From a virus, in IMG/VR virus record IMGVR_UViG_3300021959_009614, positions 1-26,043 of that record: a stretch of 26,043 nt of DNA. One strand, written 5' to 3'. Below are positions 1,302-25,301 of the stretch, one piece after another; the first letter of the stretch is position 1, and each line of letters opens with the position of its first letter. Made by a program: the position numbers and the translations under genes. A model generated the notes under the pieces. It was given only the letters and a program-made list of their open reading frames with translations, was not told the DNA's origin and made no database searches.

Positions 1302-1635
1302 TGTTAATTTCGTGACAATTACAGTGAGGGCAGTCAGGACCACATTTACATTTATCTACTGGCATACCACAACAATCATCCGGACACATTGTTTCTTCAG
1401 CATCTTCATCTTTCTTTTTCTTTTTTCTTTTCCTTTTAGAACTAGAAAGACGTGATTGCACTTTTCCTATAGCTTTAGGTAATCTTGCATCACCTGGAGC
1501 GTAAAAATCACCAGACTTAATATTAGTAGGGGAAAATCCACCATCACCACTACCTACACCAGCATCTCCTGCGGTTATATCTTCCATGACAAGCTTTTTA
1601 AAGTAAAGTGCAAACTTACCAGTTGATTTTTCCAT
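1294..1635 (-). CDS. Small hypothetical protein with polybasic run and Cys-rich tail
   Basis: A 113-residue protein starting at ATG 1635. The first half contains MEDITAGDAGVGSG and YAPGDARLPKAIG, a Gly/Asp-rich style I associate with small conserved proteins of marine T4-like phages, though I cannot name it. Residues around 66-75 form a polybasic block (KRKRKKKKK), followed by an acidic linker and a C-terminal tail with eight cysteines and a histidine (CPDDCCGMP, CKCGPDCPHCNCH), which could bind zinc or iron. Its end overlaps the GIY-YIG gene by 8 bases. A late-promoter-like AATAAATA lies 5 bases before the ATG. Function unknown. Confidence 0.7.
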   Translation of the reverse strand: MEKSTGKFALYFKKLVMEDITAGDAGVGSGDGGFSPTNIKSGDFYAPGDARLPKAIGKVQSRLSSSKRKRKKKKKDEDAEETMCPDDCCGMPVDKCKCGPDCPHCNCHEINNA

Positions 1636-1650
1636 ATTATTATTTATTCT
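1623..1650 (+). promoter_or_regulatory. Sigma70-like promoter for uvsY-uvsW (TTGATT-N16-TATTCT)
   Basis: TTGATT at 1623-1628 and TATTCT at 1645-1650 are separated by exactly 16 bases. ATG 1660 lies 9 bases after the -10, so the transcript would have almost no leader. The -35 sits inside the first codons of the divergent minus-strand gene. The first ATG (1654) is only 3 bases after the -10 and would lie upstream of the expected transcription start, which favours ATG 1660. Confidence 0.6.
1641..1648 (-). promoter_or_regulatory. Candidate T4-type late promoter (AATAAATA), near-leaderless
   Basis: The minus strand reads AATAAATA with only 5 bases (ATAAT) before the ATG at 1635. This is the same geometry as the exact TATAAATA before the gene starting at 22128. 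It physically overlaps the plus-strand -10 element at 1645-1650, so the two divergent promoters share bases. Confidence 0.5.
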
Positions 1651-1659
1651 ATTATGTGG

Positions 1660-2055
1660 ATGGAGCTACTAAAAAAATACATCGAAGAGGTAAGTAAGGA
1701 TCTCGTACTTGATGATTTCAATATTAAAGAGCAGACGTTAAGATTACCAGCACGAAAACACTATTGGGTAGCTCAACTTATTAAAGCTAAAATTGAACGT
1801 AATCATACGTTTGAAAAGAAAAAGCAGTTAAAGAAAAACATTACTAAAGAAGTAATAGCTACTTCACCGGTAAAGTTATCTCAATCAGCAGCTGAGCAAG
1901 CGGCTGAAAGGCATGAATCATTATACTCTTTAACATCCAAGATTAAGGAGTTAGATATTATTATTGAGTACTTAGAAAAAGTTGAAAAGACCATGTCTCA
2001 AATGGGATTTGATATTAAAAATGCTGTTGAAATAATGAAAATGGAACAAATGTAA
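1660..2055 (+). CDS. uvsY: UvsY-like recombination mediator
   Basis: A 131-residue, highly charged, mostly helical protein, close to the 137 residues of T4 UvsY. UvsY loads the RecA-like UvsX onto single-stranded DNA covered by gp32. Support comes from size, the C-terminal segment (EKTMSQMGFDIKNAVEIMKME, resembling the end of T4 UvsY with its GFAIKHIQDM), and position directly before uvsW, as in T4. Sequence similarity is weak, so the call rests partly on context. ATG 1660 is preferred over ATG 1654 because of the promoter spacing. Its stop overlaps the uvsW start as TAATG, indicating translational coupling. No membrane or signal sequence. Confidence 0.7.
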   Translation: MELLKKYIEEVSKDLVLDDFNIKEQTLRLPARKHYWVAQLIKAKIERNHTFEKKKQLKKNITKEVIATSPVKLSQSAAEQAAERHESLYSLTSKIKELDIIIEYLEKVEKTMSQMGFDIKNAVEIMKMEQM

Positions 2056-3494: not shown

Positions 3495-3519
3495 TTAGCA
3501 TGAAATACATCAAAAGAAG

Positions 3520-3547
3520 TTGATCTTTTTAAACAGTAGGCTATAAT
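3520..3547 (+). promoter_or_regulatory. Sigma70-like promoter for gene 55 (TTGATC-N16-TATAAT)
   Basis: TTGATC at 3520-3525, 16 bases, then a perfect TATAAT at 3542-3547 in the gap after uvsW. ATG 3556 follows after 8 bases, so the mRNA would begin at or next to the start codon. The late sigma factor thus appears to be made from a host-type promoter, as expected for a regulator that must act before late transcription. Confidence 0.7.
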
Positions 3548-3555
3548 TAGGTAGA

Positions 3556-3987
3556 ATGTCTAAAAAATCTAAAGAGGAATATTATATTAAGCCGACTGAG
3601 TTTAGAGAGAGTTTACGTAAGTACTACGCTTCAGATATTTTGACCGATGACCTTGCTGAGAATATTAAAAAGATTGCTTATGGTTTGAGCTATAATGGAT
3701 CCTTTATTAATTACAGCTATAAAGATGATATGATTGGAGATGCATTGATTAAAATGTATGCTGCTCTTAAGTATAAAAAATATAAGTTTGAAACTAAATC
3801 GAACCCCTTTTCATACTTTACCACTATTGCTTATCATGCATTTATTAATCGGATTAAGAAAGAAAAAAAGCACCATCAGACAATTACTTCATATAAAGAA
3901 AAAGTATACGAGGAGTATATGACGGATCCTAGAAATACACACGGGACTGTCTATGTGAAGCCGCTTGATGATGATTCCAACTATTAA
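3556..3987 (+). CDS. 55: gp55-like late-transcription sigma factor
   Basis: A 143-residue protein similar to T4 gp55 (185 residues), the phage sigma subunit that directs host RNA polymerase to late promoters with TATAAATA. The conserved core is visible: KKIAYGLSYN..F..Y.YKDDMIGDALIKM, then NPFSYFTTIAYHAFINRIKKEKK, which matches the gp55/sigma region 2 pattern (T4: MDEMIGDG and NPFAYFTQI..AFLRRI.KEKK). The acidic C-terminus (PLDDDSNY) is where T4 gp55 carries its sliding-clamp-binding tail, but a clear clamp motif is not obvious here. Its end overlaps gene 47 by 20 bases. It links directly to the TATAAATA sites on the minus strand of this window. Confidence 0.9.
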   Translation: MSKKSKEEYYIKPTEFRESLRKYYASDILTDDLAENIKKIAYGLSYNGSFINYSYKDDMIGDALIKMYAALKYKKYKFETKSNPFSYFTTIAYHAFINRIKKEKKHHQTITSYKEKVYEEYMTDPRNTHGTVYVKPLDDDSNY

Positions 3988-6828: not shown

Positions 6829-6842
6829 AATAATTAAATATA

Positions 6843-8060
6843 ATGATTCAATCATCACCATTTCCACAACCCTTTGCTTCTCCATTGGCTCAACCATTTG
6901 GAACTTCCCCTGTACGTTCATCTAAGCCTCAAAAACCTCGTGAGGAATCAATGCCGAGATTTGTTAATTATTTAGCAGATTATTCTGGATGTGGTCATTG
7001 GCGTATATTGTGGCCAGAACAGGTTATTAACATGACCCAACGCGGGTTAAGTCAATCGATTACTGCTATGATTGCTGAGCCGAGATGGTATCAAGGGGTG
7101 AAGGCTGTAAAATTGCAGCGTCAAGCTTCTAAAGCTCAATTAGAGTTCGTAAAACATCTCAAAAAAATACAGCAAGAACACGATTTTAAGATAATTTATG
7201 AAGTTGATGATGTGGTGTTTAGAGAAGAGATTCCAGACTATAATAAGTTTAAGTTTGCCTTTGATACTGATGAAGTAAGGGAGAGTGTTGTTAGTATTAT
7301 GGATTTGTGTGATGAGATTACCTTAACATGTGACTTTATGCGTAAGTTGTTTCAATCTAAACTTACAAATCAGAATGTTACGGTAATACCAAACTTTGTA
7401 CCATATAATTGGATGGGCTATTTGTTCAATCAAAAAAGAGTACAAACTGCGTTTGAGAAGCATAAAGGCAAGCCACGTATACTGTATACTGGTTCTGGAG
7501 CTCACTATGATGTAGCTAACAAGACAGGTGGTAAAGATGATATGTCTGCTGTTAATCATATTATTCGGAAGACAGTAGATAAGTATAAGTGGGTGTTTGT
7601 GGGTGCATATCCTCCACCATTACAAGATTTAGTTAAGTCTGGTAAGCTAGAGTTTTATCCATGGCGATCGTTGCTAGAATACCCTCAATTTATTGCTAAT
7701 TTAGACCCGCAATTAATGGTTGCACCTCTTACGTCTAATAACTTTAACAATTCAAAATCTGATATTAAATTTATTGAGGCATGCACGTTAGGTATACCGT
7801 GTTTGTGTCAAGATATGCATACATACTCTAATGCACCTGATGATCTTAAGTTTAATACACCAGAAGAGTTTGAAGAGAAGATTGAATGGATTTTGAATTG
7901 GAAAAACCGTAAGCGATACTTCCAAAACATTAGTATGCTTCGCGAAATAGGTACTAAGCGATTCCTGGAGAATCCGGAAAATATTGGATCTCATATGGAA
8001 GCTCTTACCACACCATACGGTTCACCGGAACGAAAATACCTTAAACAGTGGAATCCTTAA
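6843..8060 (+). CDS. GT-B (group 1/GT4-like) glycosyltransferase in the replication block
   Basis: A 405-residue protein. The first 35 residues are Pro/Ser-rich and low complexity. The N-terminal half contains YEVDDVVF and DEITLTCDFMRK, the second half RILYTGSGAHYDV, KWVFVGAYPPP and SDIKFIEACTLGIPCLCQD, the arrangement of a two-domain GT-B glycosyltransferase with the donor-binding E-containing helix. Acceptor and sugar are not visible. It sits 14 bases after gene 46 and 24 bases before the polymerase gene, not in the minus-strand sugar island. In T4, alpha-glucosyltransferase, which modifies hydroxymethylcytosine in DNA, lies near gene 47, so a DNA-glycosylating role is possible but unproven; a virion glycan role is the alternative. 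Confidence 0.8.
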   Translation: MIQSSPFPQPFASPLAQPFGTSPVRSSKPQKPREESMPRFVNYLADYSGCGHWRILWPEQVINMTQRGLSQSITAMIAEPRWYQGVKAVKLQRQASKAQLEFVKHLKKIQQEHDFKIIYEVDDVVFREEIPDYNKFKFAFDTDEVRESVVSIMDLCDEITLTCDFMRKLFQSKLTNQNVTVIPNFVPYNWMGYLFNQKRVQTAFEKHKGKPRILYTGSGAHYDVANKTGGKDDMSAVNHIIRKTVDKYKWVFVGAYPPPLQDLVKSGKLEFYPWRSLLEYPQFIANLDPQLMVAPLTSNNFNNSKSDIKFIEACTLGIPCLCQDMHTYSNAPDDLKFNTPEEFEEKIEWILNWKNRKRYFQNISMLREIGTKRFLENPENIGSHMEALTTPYGSPERKYLKQWNP

Positions 8061-8080
8061 AGGAACTATGTTATAATTAA
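8059..8080 (+). promoter_or_regulatory. Extended -10 promoter element before DNA polymerase gene
   Basis: The core GGAACTATGTTATAATTAA contains an extended -10 (TG, one base, TATAAT at 8072-8077). The start codon at 8085 is only 7 bases after TATAAT, so the mRNA should be leaderless or nearly so. The 22 bases match 22179-22200 at 21 positions. No good -35 is seen at 16-17 bases, consistent with an extended -10 type or with activator dependence. Confidence 0.6.
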
Positions 8081-8084
8081 CTCG

Positions 8085-10661
8085 ATGTATAGGAATGTTG
8101 TCTATAATGGTCGAGAGGGTACGGTAACTTTATTTGGTTGGAATGAACATGGTGATCGTATTCGACGTGAGTGTTCTTTTGAACCATATTTATATACGGA
8201 AGATCCAAGAGGTGAAAAGACTTCTATTTTCGGTACTAAAGTAAAGAAACGTTCATTTAATACTGGTTATAATCGTTATAAGTTTCTTCAAGATTCTGGG
8301 GTCAAAAGAGTATTCGAGAACTCACCACCTGCTCAGCAATTTCTTCTCGACATGTATTGGGAAGAGAATGAAAAACCAGAGTTTAATACTAACCCTATCA
8401 AGTATTGCTTTATTGATATTGAGACTTATTCAGTAGATAGCTTTCCTGATATAGATGATCCTACTCATGTTTGTAATGTTATAACATGTTGGGATAATTT
8501 TAGTAAGAAGTTCAATACATTCGGTATTCACGAGTATACAGGTGAAGGGCGTGATGATATGGTTTATCATTATTGTAAGACAGAACGTGATATGTTCTTA
8601 AAGTTCCTTAATTATATTGAGATGCAGCATCCTGATATTATTAGTGGTTGGAACTCTGAAGGTTTTGATATACCATACATAGTTAATCGAATGGAGCGCA
8701 TCTTAGGTCAAGAGTATGTGGATAGACTCTCACCGTTACGTAATGTTTACTTCCGCATGCGTATGGGTTCCTTTGGACGTGAGCAAAAGCGATACTATTT
8801 TGACGGTGTTGCTAATCTCGACTACCTTGATGTATATAAACGCTTTTGTCTAAAGTTACGCGAGTCATATAAGTTGGATGCTATCGGGGAATTAGAGTTA
8901 GGTCAGAAAAAAATTGACTATGAAGGCTTAGCACTTCATGAACTTGCTGATCAAGATTGGAATAAGTTTATCGACTACAACGTTCAGGACGTTAATCTTC
9001 TTGTTAAGTTGGAAGAAAAGCTTCAATACATTCCTCTCTTGCGAATGCTCTCATATGTTGGTCTAACTACCTTAGAAGGTGCTATGGGTACTATTGGAGT
9101 GATTAACGGTGCATTAACAGTTAGGGCTCGAAAAAGAGGTGAGGTTATCTCTACCTTTGTTCGTAATGGTAACAAGGATCATAAGAATCCTGGTGCGTAT
9201 GTTGCTGAACCTAAACGTGGCTTTAAAGAGCATGTTATATCGTTCGATGCTAACTCACTATACCCTAACGTGATGATCTCTCTTAATACTTCGCCCGAGA
9301 CTAAGGTGGGTAAGATTGAGAAAAATGATGGTAAAGAGATAACTATCCAGCATAACTCTGGTAGATTGTTCAAGCTTAGTAAGAAGGACTTTGTAAAGTT
9401 CCTTAAAGATGAAGAGTGTGCATTATCTAAGGCTGGGTTCTTATTCAGTCAGAAGAAACAAGGTATCATTCCTGAGTTTCTCGAGTACTATTACAATCAG
9501 CGTGTTGAGATTAAGAAAGGTCTGTTTACTAACCAGAAGAAGCTTAAGAAAGACCCTGGTAACATCGACCTAAAGTATGAAGTCGAACGTCTTAACACTC
9601 AACAGATGGTTATTAAGATTCTTATTAACTCTTGCTATGGTTATATGGGTAATAAAAATGCTCCTATTGGTGATGACGATATTGCTGCGAGTGTTACTCT
9701 AACTGGGCAAGCTGTTATTAAGTACTCAAACGAGTTGCTTAAAGACTTCATGCGCGCTGAGGTTGGCTCTGATAACATCTCTGAACGCGACCTAGAAGAG
9801 TGTATTGTATATAATGATACTGACTCATCTTATATCTCTATATCACCTCTCATTGAGAATGGTGTTAAGTTCTGGGAGTCTAAAGAAGATGCTCTTGTTC
9901 ATCAAGAGACGTACGACAAGATTCAAGAGATTGAAGATTATCTTAACGAGGGTATTACTAGTTGGTCCCGTAAAGCGTTGTTAACTAATGATCCTCGGTT
10001 TGTATTCAAGCGCGAGATGATTGCTGATGTTGCTACGTTCCTTCAGAAGAAGCGTTATGTTATGCATATCCTAGATGATGAGGGTATTAAAGAGAATAAG
10101 TTCAAGTATACCGGTGTAGAAGTTGTCCGTACTACTATGCCTAATGCTATTAAGCCTTACGCTAAGGGTATTATTGAGACTATGCTTACTACACAGGACT
10201 TGGGTAAGACTAATAAGATTTTTAACGAAGCTTATGAGACTTTTAAGACGTTATCACCGGAAGAGATATCGTTTGTGATGGGTATTAAAGGTTATGAGAA
10301 GCATGCAGTACAATGCCGTGAATGGCAAACAGTAAAGGGCATGCCAGTACATGCTAAGTCAGCATATTATTATAATCAAATACTTGAAAAGCTTGAGACG
10401 GGAAACAAATACGAATCTATTAGTTCTGGTGATAAAGTACGCTTCATGTATATTGAAACTCCTAACAAATACGGTCTTCAGTCGATGGGATTCAAATATG
10501 AATGGCCAGAGGAGTTTAATGAACTGTTTAAGATTGACTATGAAAAGATGTTTGATAAGATTCTCTTTCAATCGATTGCTCGTTTTTATGATAGTGTAGG
10601 CTGGTCGATACGTAAACCATCTGAAAATGTTCAGACAGAATTATTTGATTTATTCACCTAA
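8085..10661 (+). CDS. 43: Family B DNA polymerase (gp43)
   Basis: An 858-residue replicative polymerase with proofreading. Exonuclease motifs: FIDIET (Asp111, Glu113), GWNSEGFDIPY, and YNVQDVNLL. Polymerase motifs: A as FDANSLYP (Asp388), B as KILINSCYGYMGN, C as YNDTDSS (Asp578, Asp580), plus KKRYV. The C-terminus QTELFDLF looks like a sliding-clamp-binding peptide (Q..L/I..FF type). Length is near T4 gp43 (898). It follows the glycosyltransferase gene with its own extended -10 promoter. The gene seems slightly richer in G/C than the AT-rich sugar island downstream. Confidence 0.97.
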   Translation: MYRNVVYNGREGTVTLFGWNEHGDRIRRECSFEPYLYTEDPRGEKTSIFGTKVKKRSFNTGYNRYKFLQDSGVKRVFENSPPAQQFLLDMYWEENEKPEFNTNPIKYCFIDIETYSVDSFPDIDDPTHVCNVITCWDNFSKKFNTFGIHEYTGEGRDDMVYHYCKTERDMFLKFLNYIEMQHPDIISGWNSEGFDIPYIVNRMERILGQEYVDRLSPLRNVYFRMRMGSFGREQKRYYFDGVANLDYLDVYKRFCLKLRESYKLDAIGELELGQKKIDYEGLALHELADQDWNKFIDYNVQDVNLLVKLEEKLQYIPLLRMLSYVGLTTLEGAMGTIGVINGALTVRARKRGEVISTFVRNGNKDHKNPGAYVAEPKRGFKEHVISFDANSLYPNVMISLNTSPETKVGKIEKNDGKEITIQHNSGRLFKLSKKDFVKFLKDEECALSKAGFLFSQKKQGIIPEFLEYYYNQRVEIKKGLFTNQKKLKKDPGNIDLKYEVERLNTQQMVIKILINSCYGYMGNKNAPIGDDDIAASVTLTGQAVIKYSNELLKDFMRAEVGSDNISERDLEECIVYNDTDSSYISISPLIENGVKFWESKEDALVHQETYDKIQEIEDYLNEGITSWSRKALLTNDPRFVFKREMIADVATFLQKKRYVMHILDDEGIKENKFKYTGVEVVRTTMPNAIKPYAKGIIETMLTTQDLGKTNKIFNEAYETFKTLSPEEISFVMGIKGYEKHAVQCREWQTVKGMPVHAKSAYYYNQILEKLETGNKYESISSGDKVRFMYIETPNKYGLQSMGFKYEWPEEFNELFKIDYEKMFDKILFQSIARFYDSVGWSIRKPSENVQTELFDLFT

Positions 10662-10672
10662 GGGCGTAAATA
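10645..10672 (+). promoter_or_regulatory. Candidate promoter (TTGATT-N16-TAAATA) inside end of gene 43
   Basis: TTGATT at 10645-10650, a 16-base spacer and TAAATA at 10667-10672 lie across the polymerase stop codon. ATG 10678 follows 5 bases later. The -10 is a weaker match than at the other sites, but spacing and distance to the ATG agree with the set. Confidence 0.45.
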
Positions 10673-10677: not shown

Positions 10678-10977
10678 ATGAGTGAAAGTTATTTAGATAA
10701 CCCGGCAGATGATAATACCCCTAAAGCGCACCCTGCATATAATAGGGGTAAACTGGCAAGTACTGTCTATTTCCTTAAGTTAATTAAAGGTACCGTCTCA
10801 GGTACGGATATTGGTGAAGGTCAAATAGGCTCACCGCAGATTGAAGCTGCGCGTCGCGCTATTCTACACCTGTCTAGTGCATTAACACACGCTAGTGGTA
10901 AATCTACATACCTATCAAGCCAAGCAAAAGAAGCATTAGAAAAAGCTCGTGAAGAGCTTAAAAATATTAATGTTTAA
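10678..10977 (+). CDS. Small hypothetical phage protein
   Basis: A 99-residue soluble protein beginning MSESYLDNPADD. A longer frame opens at 10627, but it would lie inside gene 43 and upstream of the likely promoter, so ATG 10678 is preferred. The first 25 residues are acidic and Pro/Asn-rich; the rest is helical (PQIEAARRAILHLSSALTHASG and a final KEALEKAREELKNI). I do not recognise the family. It ends the plus-strand replication block and converges on the minus-strand glycosyltransferase gene with a 4-base stop overlap and no obvious terminator hairpin between them. Confidence 0.7.
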   Translation: MSESYLDNPADDNTPKAHPAYNRGKLASTVYFLKLIKGTVSGTDIGEGQIGSPQIEAARRAILHLSSALTHASGKSTYLSSQAKEALEKAREELKNINV

Positions 10978-12236
10978 ATATGACCTTCTATGGGGTCCGC
11001 GAAACCATGCTCTTTACTCTCAGGCCAAACCCGCCACTTAGTAATATTTTCCTCAGTAGCAAACCATCTCCAAAGCTTACAATAGCCATCTGGATCTGAT
11101 TTAAGTCTTTCAATTTCAGCAGGATCAGCATCCTGTCTATATACTTCTTCATCTTTGTCATTAAAGAAAGATACAGCCCAAAAATTATAATCGTCGTGTG
11201 GTACTTGGTCGTAGCTTAGATCTATACAATGCTTAAACTGCTTGACAAAAGAATTATTATATTCTTGTTTGTTAGTATATTCTGGATTAGGGGGATAAGA
11301 TCTATCTAAAGTAAATTGTTGAATTTTTTGATCTCTAAATCTAACTCCAGCATATCGTTCATAATCATTTAAACTTCGTATCTTACCGAAACCGTATTTA
11401 TTTTCTTTAGGTTTAAACTCTTCGTTATTAATACCGAATAATTTACGCACCCGTTTATATGACTTAATATTATCATCTTGCCACGTATCACTATCATCCC
11501 AATGTTTTGTGGCAGTTTTTCTACCATAGTGATGCCAGGCTATTAATTGATGTGGATAGTATATATCATATCCATGGGTAAATGCCCGGGCCGCTATACT
11601 TATTTCCTCTCCATGAAAATACATCTCTGGATCATGTTGAACATTTTTACTAAATAACCCATCTGTAAAAGCAAAATGTGCAGAATAAAATCTCCCTTTA
11701 ATAGGGCCTCCTAAACCTTTCCAATTAGGGATCGCTTCCGGTATCGTATGTAATGGCCCGTCTTTCGCGAAAAAATTATAGGATAACATCCATGGGTCAA
11801 GATCTATTGGTTTACTAGTTTCAATATCATACGCTGGTAAGTATGTCGTAATTAACGGTTTCGGAGATCCGTTAAGTTGTAGACCAGCATACATATTTTT
11901 AAGTTTTGTATCCCACCCCGCAACAAACCGATGGTGTGAGTCTAATTGCAATGTAAACTTTTCTTTATTGTAATGTTGTTGAATAAGATTTCTAGCCCAA
12001 CAAGCCCCTTTTGAATCTTTAAAATTTATATCAATAATAGTAAATCTATCATCATTAATATATTCATCTAAATTATCCCAATCATCATCTTCAGAATGTT
12101 GCCAGCAAATACAAATATGTAATAATTTTGGCTTATCAGCTTTAGAAAGTAAGTCTCTTAATGTTGGTAATAACTCCTTATCCCTATAAGAGGCTATTTG
12201 TACAAAAATAGAACCATTAGTATAGGCATTTTTCAT
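10974..12236 (-). CDS. Skp1-type GlcNAc-transferase-like glycosyltransferase (copy 1)
   Basis: A 420-residue protein matching the family of [Skp1-protein]-hydroxyproline N-acetylglucosaminyltransferase-like GT-A enzymes: IFVQIASYRDKELLPTL at the N-terminus, SKGACWARNL, LQLDSHHRF with a D.H metal/sugar motif, a FTDGLFSK segment and MYFHGEEISIAARAFTHGYD. After about residue 290 a C-terminal extension begins that the gene at 16939-18180 shares. Acceptor unknown; virion protein or host surface sugar are possible. The start at ATG 12236 is 55 bases after the stop of the upstream gene, so it may be the last gene of the island operon or have its own promoter; no exact TATAAATA is present there. Confidence 0.85.
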   Translation of the reverse strand: MKNAYTNGSIFVQIASYRDKELLPTLRDLLSKADKPKLLHICICWQHSEDDDWDNLDEYINDDRFTIIDINFKDSKGACWARNLIQQHYNKEKFTLQLDSHHRFVAGWDTKLKNMYAGLQLNGSPKPLITTYLPAYDIETSKPIDLDPWMLSYNFFAKDGPLHTIPEAIPNWKGLGGPIKGRFYSAHFAFTDGLFSKNVQHDPEMYFHGEEISIAARAFTHGYDIYYPHQLIAWHHYGRKTATKHWDDSDTWQDDNIKSYKRVRKLFGINNEEFKPKENKYGFGKIRSLNDYERYAGVRFRDQKIQQFTLDRSYPPNPEYTNKQEYNNSFVKQFKHCIDLSYDQVPHDDYNFWAVSFFNDKDEEVYRQDADPAEIERLKSDPDGYCKLWRWFATEENITKWRVWPESKEHGFADPIEGHI

Positions 12237-12291
12237 AAATATACTTATTACGGTTTTAGTAAATTACCAGAGCTGTTAATATAAAGTAAAT

Positions 12292-14618: not shown

Positions 14619-14657
14619 AGGATTTACGTGTTATTTTTTCTTTATTAAAACTCATAG
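14584..14657 (-). repeat. Perfect 37-bp tandem duplication across a gene start
   Basis: Positions 14584-14620 and 14621-14657 are identical over all 37 bases. The unit holds the ATG and first 11 codons of the methyltransferase. Since 37 is not a multiple of three, the upstream copy is out of frame with the gene. Identity of 37/37 points to a recent slippage event, or to an assembly artefact. Confidence 0.95.
14608..14655 (-). other. 15-codon mini-ORF created by the duplication
   Basis: ATG at 14655 overlaps the stop of the upstream gene (ATGA) and reads MSFNKEKITRKSYEF before a TAA that lies 10 bases inside the true methyltransferase gene. Ribosomes coupled from the upstream gene would start here first, terminate just past ATG 14618 and may re-initiate at it. 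Confidence 0.6.
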
Positions 14658-15431: not shown

Positions 15432-15943
15432 TATTTTGCAGCGAATATTACCCCTAAATTAGATGGTGTGTTTATAAAGTTAGCAATGCAATGAATATGA
15501 AATCCCCATTCTGGAATTTTTTTCATAAACTGCTCTTTCAATTCATCAGTATGAAACTCAATAGCAATATCAGTAATATTTTCCATATCTTCAAGAGTTA
15601 AATTTAGTAAATGAATTTCATGACCTTCTATATCACATTTTAAAGCAGTTATGTTGTATTCTTGCAATAAATTTTTTACGTACGATGCATCAGTTATATT
15701 GTGTGTAAAAAATTTAAAGTTGTTACTACCTTCAGTATAACGTTCATATCTAGATATGTCGTTTATATTACTATCTACACCAACAACAAAATTAGCAGTC
15801 TTAGCAAAATATATAGGACTTGTTTCCTCCATATCCTCCGTATACCAAATGCCACATCCAATATCTATAACATTTTTATTTTGTACGTTAAAATACGGCC
15901 AATGATCGGAAGAGTTTTCCGAGAGTATAGTATAATTGTTCAT
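15431..15943 (-). CDS. FkbM-type SAM-dependent methyltransferase
   Basis: A 170-residue protein with SAM motif VIDIGCGIW (residues 25-33), a VGVDSN second motif and LKCDIEGHEIHLL, which is the signature K.D.EG.E of FkbM-family methyltransferases. These usually methylate sugar hydroxyls or carboxylates. At 170 residues it is shorter than most members and is close to a bare catalytic domain. Its ATG overlaps the stop of the upstream gene (ATGA) and its stop overlaps the next gene's ATG (TAATG), so it is translated within the island operon. Confidence 0.8.
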   Translation of the reverse strand: MNNYTILSENSSDHWPYFNVQNKNVIDIGCGIWYTEDMEETSPIYFAKTANFVVGVDSNINDISRYERYTEGSNNFKFFTHNITDASYVKNLLQEYNITALKCDIEGHEIHLLNLTLEDMENITDIAIEFHTDELKEQFMKKIPEWGFHIHCIANFINTPSNLGVIFAAK

Positions 15944-16854
15944 AGATTAAATTTTGCCAGTAAAAGATTAACGTTATTATCTTTAGAGCAATACTGTTCG
16001 TAGTATTGTCTAGCATTCAAAGCTATATATTGTAAAAAATCATAGTCATCTTTAACCTCGTTAAAGCGATTAATATATTTTTGCACATTTATATCACTAC
16101 CATGTAAATCCTGATATGGGTCAAACGCCAACTCACCTCGTTCTACGGCAATATAATGAACATTTGGAATAAGCAGCGGGTCATACTTATTACAATATTC
16201 GAATCTAAGATTCGGTACACCTAAAGCCATGTTTTCAATATCTCTATAGCACATTTCTAAGTTACCTGCAATAGATAGTCCCATTTTATGTGTAATAGCA
16301 GATTCACAGTATTTTACAATATCAACAATTGCATCAATATCACATGTTATATAACCTTGTTTTTCTAAAGTAAAAGCATCAACCCTACCAGTAGCGCATT
16401 TAAAAAATAATTTATCCTTACGCTTACTAAACGGGGTTTTTAACCCTATTTTATAAAAATGATCGTAATCATGGTTAGCTAAAAATGTATAGTAAGTACA
16501 TTGCTTTAATTGAAAATTTAAAACGGATATATCCTTATTAGCCATACCCCATTCTTGTTGGCCTACTAGTATAAACACATCTTCTTTTTTGTTACGCTCA
16601 CAAAAAACATCCCATAGACGTGTTTGAGTTTCAGATAATGACATTGCGTATAGTATATCCTTTTCTTCATCATATATTACTACTTCACAATCGGGTAAAA
16701 TATGATCTATAAAGTCGATTCTCAAATGACCGCCAACTTGACTTATAACCTCGGCGTTATATTTTGCTTCTAAAGTCTTGGACAATCTATAGAACATATC
16801 CAACCACGATCGCCACACACTTTTGTTATTTTGTAATGTAGTATATACTTTCAT
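15940..16854 (-). CDS. Putative GT-B glycosyltransferase
   Basis: A 304-residue protein starting at ATG 16854, the first gene of the tightly overlapping part of the island. The C-terminal half contains HKMGLSIAGNLEMCYRDIEN, ALGVPNLRFEY, and IPNVHYIAVERGE, similar to the donor-binding part of exostosin/CAP10-like GT-B transferases (a conserved pattern where an unmarked residue precedes a P..L..Y segment and then a HYI strand). The N-terminal half is less clear (WRSWLDMFYRLSKTLEAKY). I cannot name the donor or acceptor. An exact TATAAATA lies 67 bases upstream. Confidence 0.6.
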   Translation of the reverse strand: MKVYTTLQNNKSVWRSWLDMFYRLSKTLEAKYNAEVISQVGGHLRIDFIDHILPDCEVVIYDEEKDILYAMSLSETQTRLWDVFCERNKKEDVFILVGQQEWGMANKDISVLNFQLKQCTYYTFLANHDYDHFYKIGLKTPFSKRKDKLFFKCATGRVDAFTLEKQGYITCDIDAIVDIVKYCESAITHKMGLSIAGNLEMCYRDIENMALGVPNLRFEYCNKYDPLLIPNVHYIAVERGELAFDPYQDLHGSDINVQKYINRFNEVKDDYDFLQYIALNARQYYEQYCSKDNNVNLLLAKFNL

Positions 16855-16921
16855 TTTTTAAAAAACTTATAATTAAAAATATTTATTTCTGGATTTTAAT
16901 TATTATTAACAAACATAGTAA

Positions 16922-16929
16922 TATTTATA
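16922..16929 (-). promoter_or_regulatory. Candidate T4-type late promoter (TATAAATA) for the sugar island
   Basis: An exact TATAAATA on the minus strand lies in the 84-base gap between the stop at 16939 and ATG 16854. Transcription from it would start near 16915 and give a leader of about 60 bases, then read the overlapping genes down to 12292. Together with gp55 in the same window this suggests late expression of the island. Confidence 0.6.
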
Positions 16930-16938
16930 GCCTACAAA

Positions 16939-18180
16939 TTAAAAGTTAAATTCAATTCTTTCTGCCCATCCTTGTGATTTAGAATATCCCCAGTATACAA
17001 TTTTAACTGGCGTGCTAGTTGTGTAAAACATTTCTTCGTAGTGAATATTACTACCCTGTATAAACTGTACCAATCTATCATCTGTAATATATGTTTGATG
17101 TATACCTTTTCCTTCAATATCATCAAAAGAAACTAAAATATGATCGTATTCTTTTCCGGGTAGCATATCATGTGTTATATTTACTAAATGGTAATAAGAA
17201 TTTTTCCATGGACTATCTTTAGGATTAGACGGAAAGTTGTTATCAATAGTATGCTGTTGAAATGAGCGATTTTTAAAATTTATACCCGAATAAACTTCAT
17301 AGTCGTGAAGTGTTCTCTTTGTACCAAGATTATAATCACCTAAATTATGCCCGTTATCTTCTACGTCTAGCAATTGACGTATTCTAGAACGAGCTATATC
17401 ATTACCTTTATGCCACTGATCATCACCTCGTTTATGCTGATCATCCCATACTAGTATACCACTACGCTCTTCTCTCATAGTAGCATGCCATATAACTACT
17501 CTATGTGGATGAAATAAATCATACCCGTTAGTGAACGTTCTTACTGTTAAATTAATTTCTTCGCCAGCGAAAAATATGTTAGGGTCGTGTCTAACATCTC
17601 TAGCCCATTTATTAGAACCGAAAGCAAAATGACCACTAAGAAATCTTGCTGGGTATGGCTTCTTTAAATTTTGCCAATTAGGTACAGCACCTGGACGTAT
17701 AAAAATAGTTCCAAAAGGATAAAAGCATGCTGCTTGAGACATCCACGGTTCCTGCACTCTTTCTTCAGGATCATTAAAGGGATTATACAGAGGTGAGTAC
17801 CCCCCTATAACGGGGTTATAACCATCATCTACTAACTCATCATACCAATTAATTAAAGTAGTGTCCCAATTCTCCGTAAACCTATGATGAGAATCTAACT
17901 GACATACAAAATCCTCATCAGTAAGTAGGTTATCATTTATTAATGCCCGGGCATATGGTAGACCTTTTGCCTTAGTGTAATGAATCTCTTCAATTTTAAA
18001 TCTAGGATCATCTTTATATTCAGACAAGTCATCAAAACCATCATCCGGGTTATACTGCCTGAAAATACCAAAATGAATTCTTTCAGGATATTCAGCCATA
18101 GCTAACGCGTCCTCAATAGTAGGTATTAATTCAGGGTCTCTATACGCAGGTAAATGAAGAAGAATTGTTCTCTTAGGCAT
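16939..18180 (-). CDS. Skp1-type GlcNAc-transferase-like glycosyltransferase (copy 2)
   Basis: A 413-residue paralogue of the protein at 10974-12236. The same landmarks appear in order: TILLHLPAYRDPELIPTI, AKGLPYARAL, CQLDSHHRF, GAVPNWQNL, SGHFAFGS, and IFFAGEEINLTVRTFTNGYD, with YEVYSGINF and a shared C-terminal extension. The enzymes of this family transfer GlcNAc to protein in eukaryotes; in phages the acceptor is unknown. It is the most upstream gene of the island on the minus strand and is divergent from the small gene at 18264. No exact late octamer is seen before its ATG. Confidence 0.85.
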   Translation of the reverse strand: MPKRTILLHLPAYRDPELIPTIEDALAMAEYPERIHFGIFRQYNPDDGFDDLSEYKDDPRFKIEEIHYTKAKGLPYARALINDNLLTDEDFVCQLDSHHRFTENWDTTLINWYDELVDDGYNPVIGGYSPLYNPFNDPEERVQEPWMSQAACFYPFGTIFIRPGAVPNWQNLKKPYPARFLSGHFAFGSNKWARDVRHDPNIFFAGEEINLTVRTFTNGYDLFHPHRVVIWHATMREERSGILVWDDQHKRGDDQWHKGNDIARSRIRQLLDVEDNGHNLGDYNLGTKRTLHDYEVYSGINFKNRSFQQHTIDNNFPSNPKDSPWKNSYYHLVNITHDMLPGKEYDHILVSFDDIEGKGIHQTYITDDRLVQFIQGSNIHYEEMFYTTSTPVKIVYWGYSKSQGWAERIEFNF

Positions 18181-18227: not shown

Positions 18228-18255
18228 TTGATACCTAGCTATGGTATATTATAAT
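18228..18255 (+). promoter_or_regulatory. Sigma70-like promoter (TTGATA-N16-TATAAT) before gene at 18264
   Basis: TTGATA at 18228-18233, 16 bases, and TATAAT at 18250-18255 in the 83-base divergent gap. ATG 18264 follows after 8 bases. It should drive the small gene and the tRNA up to the terminator at 18712-18740. Confidence 0.7.
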
Positions 18256-18740: not shown

Positions 18741-18743
18741 ATC

Positions 18744-18771
18744 TTGATTAATAAAGTTAAGTTCATACAAT
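18744..18771 (+). promoter_or_regulatory. Sigma70-like promoter for uvsX (TTGATT-N16-TACAAT)
   Basis: TTGATT at 18744-18749, 16 bases, TACAAT at 18766-18771. The first ATG (18772) touches the -10 and could not be on the mRNA, while ATG 18778 is 6 bases after it, so this promoter decides the uvsX start. Confidence 0.7.
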
Positions 18772-18777
18772 ATGTAT

Positions 18778-19941
18778 ATGAATGATTTTGATAAAGATAC
18801 GCTAGCCGCGTTAGATTCAATCGATAAAATAAATCCGTTTGCAACATACCTAGAAGATAGTACGTTATCACGAGTAGGTGGTTGGATTGATACAGGTAGT
18901 TATGTTCTTAATGCTATCATCTCTGGATCTATTCATGGTGGAATTCCTAAGGGTAGGGTAACGATGATGGGTGGTGAGTCAATGACAGGTAAGACTTTGT
19001 TTGTTCTTAAGATTCTTGCTAATGCTCAGAAAGAAGGATTGATTCCAGTTATTTTTGATACTGAGAACGCGGTCGATCCTGAGGGGGCTGAACGTATTGG
19101 TTTAGATATTAGTAAAGTTAAATATGTTCCTTGTGTTACTATTGAGCAGACTCGTAATGCATTATATAAGTTCCTTACTTCGGTTAAGGAAAAAGGTCTA
19201 GAAGGTAAGTTTATTGTAGCTATTGACTCACTTGGTAATCTTCAATCAGAACTAGAACATAGTCGAATGGGTAAAGATAGTACTTCATCTGATATGGGTA
19301 CCAAAGCTCGTGCTATGAAGTCCCTTATGCAGACTTGTACTAATCTAGGGGCTACTACACAAACTACTATCCTCTGTACTAACCATGTTTATGATGATCC
19401 AGCTGCTATGTTTCCTTCTATTGAGAAGCATATGCCTGGTGGTAAGTCGATCGTGTATTTACCTTCAGTAACTGTTCAGTTGGCTCGTAAGCCTATGAAG
19501 AGTGATGGTGGTAAGACTATGGATGCTGAAACTGCGGTAGGTCAGAAGAACTATGCAGGCGTTCTTATTAGAGCTCTTACTCGTAAGAATCGATTCATTA
19601 AGCAGTACCTTCAAGGTGAAATGTTCCTTTCGTTTCATACTGGACTCGACCGTTACTATGGTCTACTTGACCTTGCTGTAGGTGTAGGTGCTGTTATTCA
19701 AACTGGCTCTACTTATCAACTACCTGATGGTAAGAAGATTGGATATTACAAAAATTTTCGGAAGGATAAAGACCTCTGGGAGAATACTATCCTACCTGTC
19801 CTAGAAGAAAAGATTAAGACTGAATGGGCTTACTCTGGTGGGGAAGGTGATGACGATGTTCCTGATGAAGTAGAAGAACAGGTAATTATTCCAAAGCAGG
19901 AAAATGAAATCCTAAAAGATTCCCTAGATAAAAATGAGTAA
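18778..19941 (+). CDS. uvsX: UvsX, RecA-like recombinase
   Basis: A 387-residue RecA/UvsX family strand-exchange protein (T4 UvsX is 391). Walker A is GESMTGKT at residues 66-73, Walker B ends FIVAIDSLG (Asp150), and the ATP-linked Glu/DNA-loop region includes DMGTKARAMKSLMQ, TTILCTNHVYDD and MPGGKSIVYLPSV. The C-terminus is acidic (GEGDDDVPDEVEEQ), as is usual for regulation of DNA binding. It acts with UvsY, gp46/47 and UvsW encoded elsewhere in the window. I chose the second ATG because of promoter geometry. Its last 8 bases overlap the start of queC. Confidence 0.95.
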   Translation: MNDFDKDTLAALDSIDKINPFATYLEDSTLSRVGGWIDTGSYVLNAIISGSIHGGIPKGRVTMMGGESMTGKTLFVLKILANAQKEGLIPVIFDTENAVDPEGAERIGLDISKVKYVPCVTIEQTRNALYKFLTSVKEKGLEGKFIVAIDSLGNLQSELEHSRMGKDSTSSDMGTKARAMKSLMQTCTNLGATTQTTILCTNHVYDDPAAMFPSIEKHMPGGKSIVYLPSVTVQLARKPMKSDGGKTMDAETAVGQKNYAGVLIRALTRKNRFIKQYLQGEMFLSFHTGLDRYYGLLDLAVGVGAVIQTGSTYQLPDGKKIGYYKNFRKDKDLWENTILPVLEEKIKTEWAYSGGEGDDDVPDEVEEQVIIPKQENEILKDSLDKNE

Positions 19942-20677
19942 ATTAGTATTAAGTATATCGGGTGGTATGGACTCTGTGGTCCTACTACATATGGCAGTAG
20001 ATAGAGGATTTAAAGAGATTCATCTTATCTCATATGATTATGGTCAACGTCATAAGCGTGAACTAAACTGTGTATCAAGTCAGATTGAAGCGGTAAAAGC
20101 TAAAGTATCTGATTTGGTGATAACGCATTATATAGCTGATGTTGGATTCATTAAGCACCTAGCTCCTACCTCATCTCTTACTAACGAAGATATTGATAAC
20201 CCGGATATTAGTAAGATGGCCGGTGATGCACAACCAGTAAGCTATGTACCTTTCCGCAATCAGTTGTTCAATACTATAGGATGTGCATATGCAGAAGCTA
20301 AAGGTGCTGATATTGTTTGGTATGGAGCGGCTGAAGTGGATAGTCTAGCCGGTTATTGGGATGGTTCTAATGAATTTGTTGATTCTATGAATGCATTGAT
20401 TGCTCTTAACAGGGAACATCGTATTAATATTGAAGCTCCGTTGCTTACAATGAGTAAAGAAGCTATCGTTGAAGAAGGGGTAAGGTTAGGGGTCGATTTT
20501 GGTAATACTTGGACGTGTTACTCTAATAGGAAAGATGGATTAGCAGATGCAACAACCCCATCATCTAGTATGCGAGTAAAGGGCTTTGTTGATGCAGGCT
20601 ATCAGGACCCTATTCAGTATATACAGCAATCTAAGTTGAATGAGCTATACTTGTCTAAAGGATGTAAAAAGCTTTAG
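19934..20677 (+). CDS. queC: QueC-like 7-cyano-7-deazaguanine synthase with lost zinc cysteines
   Basis: A 247-residue protein of the QueC family, which uses ATP and ammonia to turn 7-carboxy-7-deazaguanine into preQ0. The PP-loop SGGMDS is intact at residues 9-14, as are SYDYGQRHKREL, VPFRNQLF and the C-terminal KGF..AG..DP. QueC normally binds zinc with four cysteines; here only Cys195 (in TWTCY) remains, and the usual CxxCxxC is replaced by Asp205, Thr208 and Ser211 in DATTPSS. In phages QueC homologues supply 7-deazaguanine bases for DNA modification. It is translationally coupled to uvsX (8-base overlap). It could be active with a changed structural site, or altered in substrate. Confidence 0.85.
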   Translation: MSKLVLSISGGMDSVVLLHMAVDRGFKEIHLISYDYGQRHKRELNCVSSQIEAVKAKVSDLVITHYIADVGFIKHLAPTSSLTNEDIDNPDISKMAGDAQPVSYVPFRNQLFNTIGCAYAEAKGADIVWYGAAEVDSLAGYWDGSNEFVDSMNALIALNREHRINIEAPLLTMSKEAIVEEGVRLGVDFGNTWTCYSNRKDGLADATTPSSSMRVKGFVDAGYQDPIQYIQQSKLNELYLSKGCKKL

Positions 20678-22128
20678 AGACCGTATCGACGAACTTCTTC
20701 GAGTTGCCAGTGCGTCTTAGGCTGGAAGCGCTCTTTAAAGCTAAGATTGTTTTCCTTCCTTTGTTTAGGTAGAGCATCTTGTACTTTTTGCTCTACTAAG
20801 TACTGGTTAGTGTAGACTTCTTCAATGGCTTCTTCATGCTTCTCAACAAGATATTGCTGTGTGGGTGTTGTTTGACCATTTTCGTTAACAGTACTTTCAA
20901 TAATTGGCTCAACTGTTGAATAGATATCAGTAAGATAGTCAGCAGTTGTATATTTGCTTTCAGCGACCATTTCATAATCTTCTGTATCTAAAAACTTAGC
21001 AGCAGCAGCCATACGAACTTCATCACCACGACGCTTGTATTTAGCATAAACTTTCTTAGCAGCATCTTTAAAGATAAAATCTCGTTGCTCACCACCATAC
21101 TCATCTGTATTAAGAGAAGCAATTTTTTGTATTTCACTAACAACACCTTTATTAACTGTATGATCGGCTTCACCGTCTTCGTCTTTAATATCATCTTCAT
21201 CATGGTAATCATCAGGTATCTCACCATCACCTAGCTCCTCTACTTCAACTTGAGCCATACCATCTATATCATCTTCTCCATCCTCTTTATCCATTGAAGA
21301 GGCAATAGCTTCACCTCTTTTACGCTCATATTCGGAAATCTTACCGTCGTCGTCAAGGTCTGATTTTTCAGCATCAAAGTCTGGATCTTCTTGATCTTCC
21401 ATTTCGGCTTCCACTGTACCCTGTTCGATAGGCTTAACGATTGATGATAAGTAAACAGCAATTTTTTCATACTCCGGTAAATTACTAATTTGTGAAATAA
21501 ACGACTTAAGCTGCTCAACTGTGTTAATATTTTTTACAAATTTTGAAACTTCATCTAGAGCAGGTTCGTCAATATCTTCAAATCCTGGATCACCGAGATT
21601 AAGTCTAATGTTACCTAGCATAGTAGCGAGTGAAGTAATGAGCAGTATTTTTTCATCTGAAATAACATCAGCTAAGGCATCATCCATTTCTTTACCAGAT
21701 TTAACAGCACGTGCTTGTGCGGCTAACTCTTGAGCAGCGGCCTGCGCAGCGTATTTTTCTTCACGTGAGCGGTTAGCACCCATACCAGAAATAAAATCAT
21801 CTAAAGTACTTTCAATTGTCTGTGCAATTTCATCCGATTTAGCATTAATTGCATCTTGATTACCTTGAAGAACTTTAAGCATAGCTTGCTTTTTACCAGT
21901 AAAGCCTTTACTCATTTTAACAGCATTTAATTCCTCTTCAGAAATAACATCTAGGTTAAATAATAGCTCTCTGATAAATCTTATGGTATCTAATGGAGCA
22001 GAACTTAATCCAGCTGATCGCATTTGCTTTGTAACACCAGTAGCACCAGGTACTAAAGCCTCCACAGGAGATTTTCTTGCTTCATTTAGAGATTGCAACC
22101 TGGTGTAAAAGTTATCGAATGAGCTCAT
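20674..22128 (-). CDS. Acidic late protein with EF-hand-like loop, possible prohead/virion protein
   Basis: A 484-residue, very acidic, Ala/Glu-rich and largely helical protein. Its first 17 residues end LQSLNEA; LNE followed by Ala fits the L/I-x-E site cut by the T4 prohead protease gp21, so it may be a processed head or scaffold-type protein. Residues 257-268 form a full EF-hand-type calcium loop (DLDDDGKISEYE), inside a strongly acidic region from about 240 to 320. The gene is preceded by an exact TATAAATA late promoter, which agrees with a structural role. I cannot assign it to a specific T4 gene. It converges on queC with a 4-base overlap. Confidence 0.75.
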   Translation of the reverse strand: MSSFDNFYTRLQSLNEARKSPVEALVPGATGVTKQMRSAGLSSAPLDTIRFIRELLFNLDVISEEELNAVKMSKGFTGKKQAMLKVLQGNQDAINAKSDEIAQTIESTLDDFISGMGANRSREEKYAAQAAAQELAAQARAVKSGKEMDDALADVISDEKILLITSLATMLGNIRLNLGDPGFEDIDEPALDEVSKFVKNINTVEQLKSFISQISNLPEYEKIAVYLSSIVKPIEQGTVEAEMEDQEDPDFDAEKSDLDDDGKISEYERKRGEAIASSMDKEDGEDDIDGMAQVEVEELGDGEIPDDYHDEDDIKDEDGEADHTVNKGVVSEIQKIASLNTDEYGGEQRDFIFKDAAKKVYAKYKRRGDEVRMAAAAKFLDTEDYEMVAESKYTTADYLTDIYSTVEPIIESTVNENGQTTPTQQYLVEKHEEAIEEVYTNQYLVEQKVQDALPKQRKENNLSFKERFQPKTHWQLEEVRRYGL

Positions 22129-22134
22129 TGATAT

Positions 22135-22142
22135 TATTTATA
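22135..22142 (-). promoter_or_regulatory. T4-type late promoter (TATAAATA), near-leaderless
   Basis: Exact TATAAATA on the minus strand, with 6 bases (ATATCA) before the ATG at 22128. In T4 this octamer is the only DNA element needed by gp55-RNA polymerase. The expected transcription start falls on or next to the ATG. Confidence 0.8.
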
Positions 22143-22178
22143 GCCGGTAGTAGAAATTACTTTAAAAAAGTGCAAATA

Positions 22179-22200
22179 AAAGGAACTTTGTTATAATTAA
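22179..22200 (+). promoter_or_regulatory. Extended -10 promoter element before HhH gene
   Basis: Core GGAACTTTGTTATAATTAA with TG, one base, TATAAT (22192-22197), matching the element before gene 43 at 21 of 22 bases. ATG 22209 follows TATAAT after 11 bases. No strong -35 is present at 16-17 bases. Confidence 0.6.
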
Positions 22201-22208
22201 TATAGAAT

Positions 22209-22595: not shown

Positions 22596-22616
22596 TATTA
22601 GATTAAATTATAGTAT

Positions 22617-23285: not shown

Positions 23286-23286
23286 A

Positions 23287-23955
23287 ATGAACAACGAATT
23301 ATTTATTTGTGTCGCGACAAAAGGTAAGAAAGAAGATACCTTATTATGGCAAACTAAAAATAAAAAAATGGAAGTATACTTCAAGGAGCATAATAAAGAC
23401 TCTTTGCAAAAGGTATATAATAAAGCAATTGATTTTGCTATTAAAGAAAACGTGGATCATATTATTTTATGTCACGATGATATTATTCTAGAAAATTTTG
23501 ATTATAGTAAGCTTAAGAAGCATTTTAAAGAATATGATGTTCTTGGAGTAGCAGGTGCTTCACAAATCAATGTACAACAGCCGGCCCTATGGCATCATAT
23601 GGGTCGCGGCAAACTACATGGTGCAGTTGCACACCTAGACGGTACTCAGAAATCAATGACTGCGTTTGGTCCATATCCACATCAAGCATTAATTATGGAT
23701 GGTGTATTTTTGGCAATTTCACGTAATGTATTTAAGAAGATTAGATTTGATGAATCATGTCCTGCTGGATTTCATTTTTATGATCTAGCATACACCCTTG
23801 ACGCGTCACTTGCAGGATTTAAGTGCGGTGTTATTGACGCGTACGTTACACACGCCTCACCCGGGCTTAAAGAATTTACCACAGACTGGACAAATGGTCA
23901 AAAGTGGTTTTTTGATAAGTATAATAAGTACGTTGGTAAAACGGTACAAATATAG
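23287..23955 (+). CDS. GT-A glycosyltransferase-like protein
   Basis: A 222-residue protein beginning MNNELFICVATKGKKED. It has the layout of small GT2-like transferases: HIILCHDDIILENFDY with Asp64-Asp65 as DXD-type motif, VLGVAGASQIN, LHGAVAHLDG, ALIMDGVFLAISRNVFKKI and DLAYTLDASLAGFKCGVID, then THASPG near the end. Donor and acceptor are unknown. A longer frame opens at 23248, but ATG 23287 right after the amidotransferase stop is better and lets the two genes be coupled. It is a plus-strand sugar gene apart from the minus-strand island. Confidence 0.8.
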   Translation: MNNELFICVATKGKKEDTLLWQTKNKKMEVYFKEHNKDSLQKVYNKAIDFAIKENVDHIILCHDDIILENFDYSKLKKHFKEYDVLGVAGASQINVQQPALWHHMGRGKLHGAVAHLDGTQKSMTAFGPYPHQALIMDGVFLAISRNVFKKIRFDESCPAGFHFYDLAYTLDASLAGFKCGVIDAYVTHASPGLKEFTTDWTNGQKWFFDKYNKYVGKTVQI

Positions 23956-23983
23956 TTGATTCTTAACAATAGGTTACTATTAT
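23956..23983 (+). promoter_or_regulatory. Sigma70-like promoter for gene 41 (TTGATT-N16-TATTAT)
   Basis: TTGATT at 23956-23961, 16 bases, TATTAT at 23978-23983, directly after the stop of the glycosyltransferase gene. ATG 23991 is 7 bases after the -10. The G-rich AGTGGG just before the ATG could add a weak ribosome contact if transcription starts slightly upstream. Confidence 0.6.
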
Positions 23984-23990
23984 AAGTGGG

Positions 23991-25301
23991 ATGGGTAAGC
24001 TAGATCTCGACTATTTCGAAAACTTGTTGATGTATAATGCGTTGACAGATAGTGGCTATTTGTCAACTATCGCAGATATAGTCCAACCAGACTATTTTAA
24101 GAGTAAAGATATCGCAAGTGTCTTTACAATCATTAAAGAATTTAACGAAAAGCGGAATCAATTACCCACTACAACTGAGATTAAGCAGTATCTAGTAACT
24201 GATGAGCAGAAAGTATCATTTAAACGTTTAGTTACATCCTTTTCTGATATTGATAAGAATATCAATAAAGATGAATTAATTGAAAATACGGAGCAATTCT
24301 TAAAAGAGAAAGCAGTATATCATACAATGTTGAAAGCAGCAGAAGATATATCTGCTGGTGATGTTGATACTACAGTTATATTAGATAAGTTTGAGAAAAG
24401 TTGTAACATTAGCTTAGTTACTGATCTAGGTTTAGGTGTTAAGACTAATATTGATGATATTATTGAAGATCTTACTACGGTCGAAGATAAAATACCTAGT
24501 ACGTGGGAATGGTTGGATGATTCATTAGATGGTGGCTTTTTACAAGCAGGTAAATCGTTATACGTATTCGCTGGTGAGACAAATATTGGTAAATCTATAT
24601 TTTTAGGTAATGTAGCTTCTAATATTGCTAAACAAGGTAAAAATGTGTTACTAATAACTTTAGAGATGTCAGAGTTATTATATGCGAGACGTATATGCAC
24701 TAATATCTCTAAGATACCAATGAAGGAAATGGCGGTAAATGGAGCTTCATTGAGAGCTGCAGTAACGGAATCACCTGGTAGTATTTATATCAAAGAGTTT
24801 CCACCCTCAACCGTTACACCTAATCAGATAAAGGCATTTTGTAAGAAGTTTCAAGATAAAGGTATTAAGTTAGATGCAATAGTTATCGACTATCTTAACT
24901 TAATACATTCACCGATTGGTAATAATTCTTATGAGAGAATTAAGAACGTTACAGAGCAAATACGTGCTATTAGCTACGTGTTTAATTGCCCTATTATTAG
25001 TGCTACACAGTTAAATAGGGCTGGATTTGATCAAGATAATCCTGATCTTGCTACTATCTCCGAGTCTATTGGATTAGCTGCTACTGCTGATGTAATACTC
25101 TCAATTTTCCAAAATGACGAAGATAGAGATTTAGGTATTATTAGGCTAGGTATGATGAAGAATCGATATGGGCCACGTGGGATGACACAACCTATGCGTA
25201 TTGATTACTCAACACTTACTATTGAACAAGCAGATGATATTGATCTAGAAGAAGACGATTCAATGCTTAATACGTTAGCTGGACTTTCTAGAAGCACATA
25301 G
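23991..25301 (+). CDS. 41: DnaB-like replicative helicase (gp41)
   Basis: A 436-residue hexameric 5'-3' helicase of the DnaB/gp41 family (T4 gp41 is 475). The N-terminal 150 residues are helical, as in the primase-contact domain. The RecA-like domain has Walker A GETNIGKS (195-202), LITLEMSELLYARR (motif H1a region), Walker B VIDYLNL (Asp300), ISATQLNR, and KNRYGPRG with the arginine finger region. The tail is acidic (DDIDLEEDDS). It has its own promoter and works with gp43 and a primase not seen in this window. Confidence 0.93.
   Translation: MGKLDLDYFENLLMYNALTDSGYLSTIADIVQPDYFKSKDIASVFTIIKEFNEKRNQLPTTTEIKQYLVTDEQKVSFKRLVTSFSDIDKNINKDELIENTEQFLKEKAVYHTMLKAAEDISAGDVDTTVILDKFEKSCNISLVTDLGLGVKTNIDDIIEDLTTVEDKIPSTWEWLDDSLDGGFLQAGKSLYVFAGETNIGKSIFLGNVASNIAKQGKNVLLITLEMSELLYARRICTNISKIPMKEMAVNGASLRAAVTESPGSIYIKEFPPSTVTPNQIKAFCKKFQDKGIKLDAIVIDYLNLIHSPIGNNSYERIKNVTEQIRAISYVFNCPIISATQLNRAGFDQDNPDLATISESIGLAATADVILSIFQNDEDRDLGIIRLGMMKNRYGPRGMTQPMRIDYSTLTIEQADDIDLEEDDSMLNTLAGLSRST

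Follow-up and report, generated by a model that had tools for sequence, protein, structure and literature searches.

In a 26,043-nt fragment of an uncultured T4-like phage (IMGVR_UViG_3300021959_009614, 34% GC; henceforth the window) and in its relatives, promoters stand directly against start codons and ribosome-binding sites are almost absent, an arrangement suggesting that many genes are probably translated from near-leaderless mRNAs. We hold it very likely that mRNAs with leaders of 0-3 nt are made from all three promoter classes described below and that the host rarely needs a Shine-Dalgarno (SD) sequence. The initial annotation of the window had proposed near-leaderless initiation from a single promoter type covering core genes. 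That pattern was borne out and proved wider, comprising three promoter classes rather than one, and the proposal is supported by spacing conserved among orthologs, by clade-wide SD loss relative to control phages and by the placement of -35 elements.

The clade-wide counts are based on the window and 12 related uncultured contigs (1,478 open reading frames, ORFs), and the control phages are T4, HTVC008M, C48C1 and Syn9 (408 ORFs). Eight relatives of 39-197 kb (G001-G008) were examined nearly in full; four more contigs of the same clade (G177, G178, G182, and G187) were found via the promoter pattern. A -10 element or late TATA box lies 4-9 nt upstream of 513 of the 1,478 clade starts (35%), as opposed to 24 of the 408 control starts (6%). 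SD-like tetramers, conversely, precede 8% of the clade ORFs and 50% of the control ORFs when pooled. Contig by contig, they occur before 0-10% of starts, which equals background in every clade contig, compared with 62% in T4, 51% in HTVC008M, 43% in C48C1 and 23% in Syn9.

The spacing between promoter and start codon was probed from three directions. Searching by motif across 81 loci yielded 148 distinct TTGA-N17-19-TATAAT sites, 104 of which have an ORF ATG within 60 nt, at 6-8 nt in 79 of the 104; the reversed-pattern control, read on nine contigs, gave 47 sites and no peak. Starting instead from 120 starts with TANAAT 5-8 nt upstream, TTGA was found at the -35 position in 50, whereas shifting the window left 6 and reversing the tetramer left 4. 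Lastly, starts were set by protein homology alone, using proteins 52-96% identical. The element precedes the homology-placed uvsX start by 6-8 nt in 9/9 contigs (once as CATAAT), and the same TTGA element stands 6-8 nt upstream of the gp55 gene in 8/9 contigs, the ninth having a TACTAT box at 5 nt. It lies mostly 6 nt before uvsY and, where present, 6-7 nt before the gp41 gene, and the -10-to-start spacing is also kept in homology-defined gp43 orthologs. Measured from such starts, the spacing persists to protein identities of ~50-80%. The first T of the -10 is thus ~10-12 bp before the start codon and enriched there over other positions, as in the TA-like-signal rule (PMC3160421); this -10-position criterion has been used to recognize leaderless genes in bacteria (PMC3160421; PMC12340547).

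Within the window, the first class consists of sigma70-type promoters matching TTGAT, 17 nt and TANNNT (that is, TTGATN, 16 nt and the hexamer). Six such sites ahead of genes had been claimed; five are valid, with exact motif, spacing and distance to the start:

1623..1650, plus strand: uvsY promoter, TTGATT-N16-TATTCT, 9 nt before ATG 1660
3520..3547, plus strand: gene 55 promoter, TTGATC-N16-TATAAT, 8 nt before ATG 3556
18228..18255, plus strand: TTGATA-N16-TATAAT promoter, 8 nt before the ORF start at 18264
18744..18771, plus strand: uvsX promoter, TTGATT-N16-TACAAT, 6 nt before ATG 18778
23956..23983, plus strand: gp41 helicase promoter, TTGATT-N16-TATTAT, 7 nt before ATG 23991

These five lie 6-9 nt before start codons, and four more copies are scattered within genes. 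For a comparison with shuffled sequence, of the kind that had been proposed, the 25 upstream regions were randomized 5,000 times with dinucleotides preserved: 4,972 rounds gave no site and 28 gave one, against the five observed. The fixed 16-nt spacer holds in the window and not in the relatives, which use 15-17. The uvsX promoter follows directly on a hairpin and T-run that terminates the upstream tRNA-Asn unit. Homologs of uvsY begin at a matching codon (GTG/ATG) 6 nt past the -10, and we predict that uvsY starts at 1660 instead of at the 5'-most ATG at 1654.

The sixth proposed promoter, ahead of 10678, was rejected: its hexamer, TAAATA, does not match TANNNT, and its TTGAT codes for the conserved ELFDLF-type C-terminus of gp43. 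This peptide (window 10640-10661, plus strand) resembles a sliding-clamp binding tail. What remains at this position is:

10667..10672, plus strand: TAAATA, 5 nt upstream of ATG 10678; a weak late-type box at best, conserved in the nearest relative alone

The second class lacks a -35 and has in its place the heptamer AAGGAAC at -24 to -18. In the clade, 135 sites read AAGGAAC-N5-TANNAT. When spacings of 2-9 nt between AAGGAAC and TATAAT were scanned, 98 of 103 sites had 5 nt. A start codon follows exactly 6 nt on in 53 of the 135 and 5-8 nt on in 85, while the four control phages together have two loosely matching sites. The sites cluster ahead of small ORFs in five contigs (G002, G004, G178, G177, and G187), and in G004 they also occur upstream of a tRNA and a transfer-messenger RNA (tmRNA). 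Two stand in the window:

8060..8077, plus strand: gp43 DNA polymerase promoter, AAGGAAC-N5-TATAAT, 7 nt before ATG 8085
22180..22197, plus strand: AAGGAAC-N5-TATAAT promoter, 11 nt before ATG 22209, with AAGGAAC kept in the orthologs shown

The genes driven by this class would be early, to judge from their small size and clustering, and the class itself appears to be new, as it matched nothing known in the open-licence papers searched. The notion that AAGGAAC is a trait of four unrelated phage types was discarded, because G177, G178, G182, and G187 each share 44-70 ORFs with the clade. A few AAGGAAC promoters have leaders of 28-60 nt (G004 near 44450 and G005 near 1340, both minus strand), two of which begin ATAGGAG or AAAAAGG; the class is therefore not always leaderless.

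The third class resembles the T4 late promoter, whose box extends from -13 to -6, about one helical turn before the transcription start (PMC2988020). The T4 late box TATAAATA peaks 5-6 nt before clade starts. It occurs without a -35 at late-type genes, and the clade encodes a gp55 homolog, the predicted user of these boxes. Since the late box ends at -6 (PMC2988020), an ATG placed 5 nt past it would coincide with +1. The gp21 protease gene has a late box 5-7 nt before its homology-placed start in 7/7 contigs. Two late-type boxes were found in the window:

22135..22142, minus strand: late-type TATAAATA, 6 nt before ATG 22128 of the minus-strand ORF 20674-22128, with the same spacing in 4/4 contigs
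1641..1648, minus strand: late-type AATAAATA, 5 nt before ATG 1635 of the minus-strand ORF 1294-1635, overlapping the opposite-strand uvsY promoter

The earlier list of boxes near starts was correspondingly incomplete, having overlooked both the AAGGAAC-class -10 elements (ahead of 8085 and 22209) and the minus-strand late TATA boxes. The reversed pattern ATAAATAT was dropped as a control because it overlaps a real late box. Where the uvsY promoter and the divergent late-type promoter overlap (window 1623-1651; same place in 7/8 clade contigs), the plus-strand -10 has bases in common with the minus-strand TAAATA, and the -35 TTGAT falls within the opening codons (MEKSTG/MESTG) of the divergent ORF. 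The overlap could serve as a middle-to-late switch.

Taken together, these elements point to a route of expression. From the usual geometry of the -10 and of the late TATA box, RNA polymerase would start at the start codon or 1-3 nt before it. Sigma70-type TTGA-N16/17-TATAAT promoters would act ahead of recombination and replication genes of the kind called 'middle' in T4. The -10 with AAGGAAC replacing the -35 would drive small early-type ORFs, the gp43 gene and the tRNA and tmRNA genes, and gp55-type TATAAATA would drive the late genes. The host ribosome would then begin at a 5'-terminal AUG without an SD. Genes inside operons would be reached through coupling where stop and start codons overlap; uvsW, 46, 47, and queC, which are operon-internal, have neither box nor SD, and their starts overlap a stop codon or lie close to such an overlap.

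Several points weigh against so general a scheme. About 65% of clade starts have no near box, whether because the gene is operon-internal, the box is weak or the start is misplaced, and the genome-wide counts mechanically take the 5'-most ATG as the start. The point at which RNA polymerase initiates can vary by 1-3 nt, and transcripts reading through from promoters further upstream would add leadered copies. At the major capsid gene, moreover, the SD-like sequence AAAGGAAA is conserved in 5/5 gp23 homologs (G002-G005 and G182), 7-10 nt upstream of the ATG. Among the core genes tested, the gp23 homolog alone retains a conserved SD-like sequence. SD use in the clade is thus not wholly absent, and the retention of AAAGGAAA suggests that an anti-SD persists in the host ribosome.

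Transcription units overlap in T4-like genomes, and many clade genes lie no more than 40 nt from the preceding gene. The promoters could accordingly be real while upstream starts and read-through produce mostly leadered mRNA, with leaderless copies in the minority. We regard this as improbable, since leadered messages need translation signals and SD is at background throughout. Read-through into uvsX, moreover, should stop at the terminator-like hairpin directly upstream of its promoter. It is more doubtful still that the AT-rich stretch ahead of the ATG is a Kozak-like translation signal resembling a -10 by coincidence, although in Flavobacterium the SD is replaced by preferred bases immediately ahead of the start codon, as outlined in PMC6847099, and the clade genomes have a GC content of 32-37%. 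Against this reading, the stretch is accompanied by a correctly spaced -35 (50/120 vs 4-6) or by AAGGAAC at 5 nt (98/103), and the same AAGGAAC element also stands before untranslated tRNA and tmRNA genes. Chance in an AT-rich genome has practically no claim: TANNNT is common at 34% GC, yet the shuffle test, the reversed-pattern control and the ortholog conservation refute this explanation, and T4 and HTVC008M, of the same GC content, have no -10 peak.

A different question is why such mRNAs would be translated. By analogy with the Thermus phage phiYS40, the phage might shift the balance of initiation factors so that its leaderless mRNAs outcompete leadered host mRNAs; in the phiYS40 precedent, as summarized in the review PMC3594737, leaderless middle and late mRNAs accompany a rise in IF2 and a fall in IF3. 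We consider such a takeover unlikely here. Early-type genes are placed for leaderless expression too, so the host must be able to translate such mRNAs before any takeover, and the loss of SD at genes that are not first in their units indicates a host habit. A search for phage-borne IF3 or bS21 found no homolog in the clade contigs searched, which also counts against takeover. An SD-independent habit of the host is therefore the more likely cause. As for the full combination, we lean toward a clade with leaderless early, middle and late genes, in which SD was largely dropped save at the major capsid gene and the host's RNA polymerase, along with some factor of phage or host origin acting on the earliest genes, reads a previously undescribed AAGGAAC class.

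Leaderless phage mRNAs are already known: most middle and late mRNAs of phiYS40 are leaderless (Sevostyanova 2007, via review PMC3594737). It is a lytic phage with leaderless mRNAs in a host able to translate them, as would hold for the clade too. It differs in that it is not T4-like, that the review does not call its early transcripts leaderless, and that its 5' ends were mapped, whereas the clade is known here from sequence alone. In the clade, sigma70-type, AAGGAAC-type and gp55-late promoters all stand at the start codon in many uncultured marine contigs. Deinococcus-Thermus ORFs adjacent to a -10 (PMC12340547) and bacterial genes with TA-like signals (PMC3160421) have TANNNT/TATAAT 6-7 bp before the ORF and were interpreted by the same rule. 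Those systems are cellular, with mostly GC-rich genomes, whereas the genomes here are those of a phage clade, with SD no commoner than background and promoters of three types. T4 shares the gene set uvsX, uvsY, 41, 43, and 55, and late TATAAATA with a gp55 homolog, but most of its late boxes stand 13-29 nt ahead of the ATG, and it shows no TATAAT peak near starts. The MotA family (PF09114), the T4 middle activator, was not detected in the clade in a search that had no positive control. The Pelagibacter phage HTVC008M (L116) is likewise T4-like, marine and low in GC; unlike the clade, it keeps SD at half of its genes, its non-late promoters are not at starts, and its UvsX is 33% identical, so it is not a close relative. 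Its TATAAATA boxes nevertheless stand exactly 5 nt before the ATG at five late-type genes (6280, 7562, 31132, and 49760 on the plus strand, 18916 on the minus strand), from which leaderless late mRNAs are predicted there too. Set against the open-licence papers searched, what appears to be new is the occurrence in T4-like phages, the set of three promoter classes and the AAGGAAC element.

The assignment of the window to T4-like phages is based on PHROG matches for uvsX, uvsY, the uvsW helicase, 41, and 55. Alignments of gp43 with T4-like DNA polymerases cover 98% at ~30% identity, and 46/47 match T4 weakly (~25%). Three of the genes are placed as follows:

1660..2055, plus strand: uvsY (PHROG UvsY-like, E 1.5e-10)
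3556..3987, plus strand: gene 55, late sigma factor (PHROG E 4.8e-23)
18778..19941, plus strand: uvsX (PHROG E 5e-60)

A megablast search with the window against cultured phages gave no match, and UvsX, gp43 and gp41 of the nearest cultured relatives are ~30-33% identical. A uvsX gene with 79-98% identity to that of the window occurs in at least 80 IMG/VR contigs; the clade is uncultured and mainly marine. Amid the replication genes of the window, seven minus-strand ORFs are inserted (10974-18180), several of them glycosyltransferase- or methyltransferase-like by eye. A plus-strand queC-like gene, named by eye (19934-20677), overlaps the 3' end of uvsX in all clade contigs checked and may point to a modified guanine in the phage DNA.

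Clues to the host came from two tmRNA genes in the relatives:

L081:15777-16193 (G004), minus strand: one-piece tmRNA preceded by an AAGGAAC promoter; its predicted tag, AANKVVDFVLPQAEPQFALAA, is unusual
L126:4252-4661 (G005), minus strand: tmRNA, a weaker call with an odd-looking tag

The 33-nt 3' end of the G004 tmRNA is present in only 10 of the genomes searched: five Akkermansiaceae/Lentisphaeria/Victivallales, four rumen metagenome-assembled genomes (MAGs) with a Lentisphaeria-type tmRNA tag, and one Clostridia MAG. As a lead, this hints at a Verrucomicrobiota host. Akkermansia has been listed as SD-scarce (PMC10783764). Of four Akkermansiaceae samples, three had SD at or below background (7-23% vs 18-21%) and the fourth had 17% vs 7%; other Verrucomicrobiota genomes use SD. 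No clade uvsX was found in the bacterial genomes searched. A picture of Verrucomicrobiota as a strongly leaderless phylum was not supported, promoter-to-ATG distances of 6-7 nt (~97, with duplicates) and of 26-27 nt (~61) both being common.

The architecture is real, clade-wide and in keeping with the criterion by which leaderless genes have been recognized in print (PMC3160421, PMC12340547), and a T4-like clade built in this way is unusual for so well studied a kind of phage. T4 is a reference for phage gene control, with SD-bearing leaders as the rule. An SD-poor T4-like clade would mean that translation signals can be rebuilt genome-wide, probably to suit the host. It would provide a host clue for uncultured phages from sequence alone, and would correct start-codon calls in viral metagenomes, such as 1654 vs 1660 for uvsY. 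AAGGAAC is a candidate new promoter class, and the prediction for the late genes of the cultured HTVC008M makes part of this reading testable now.

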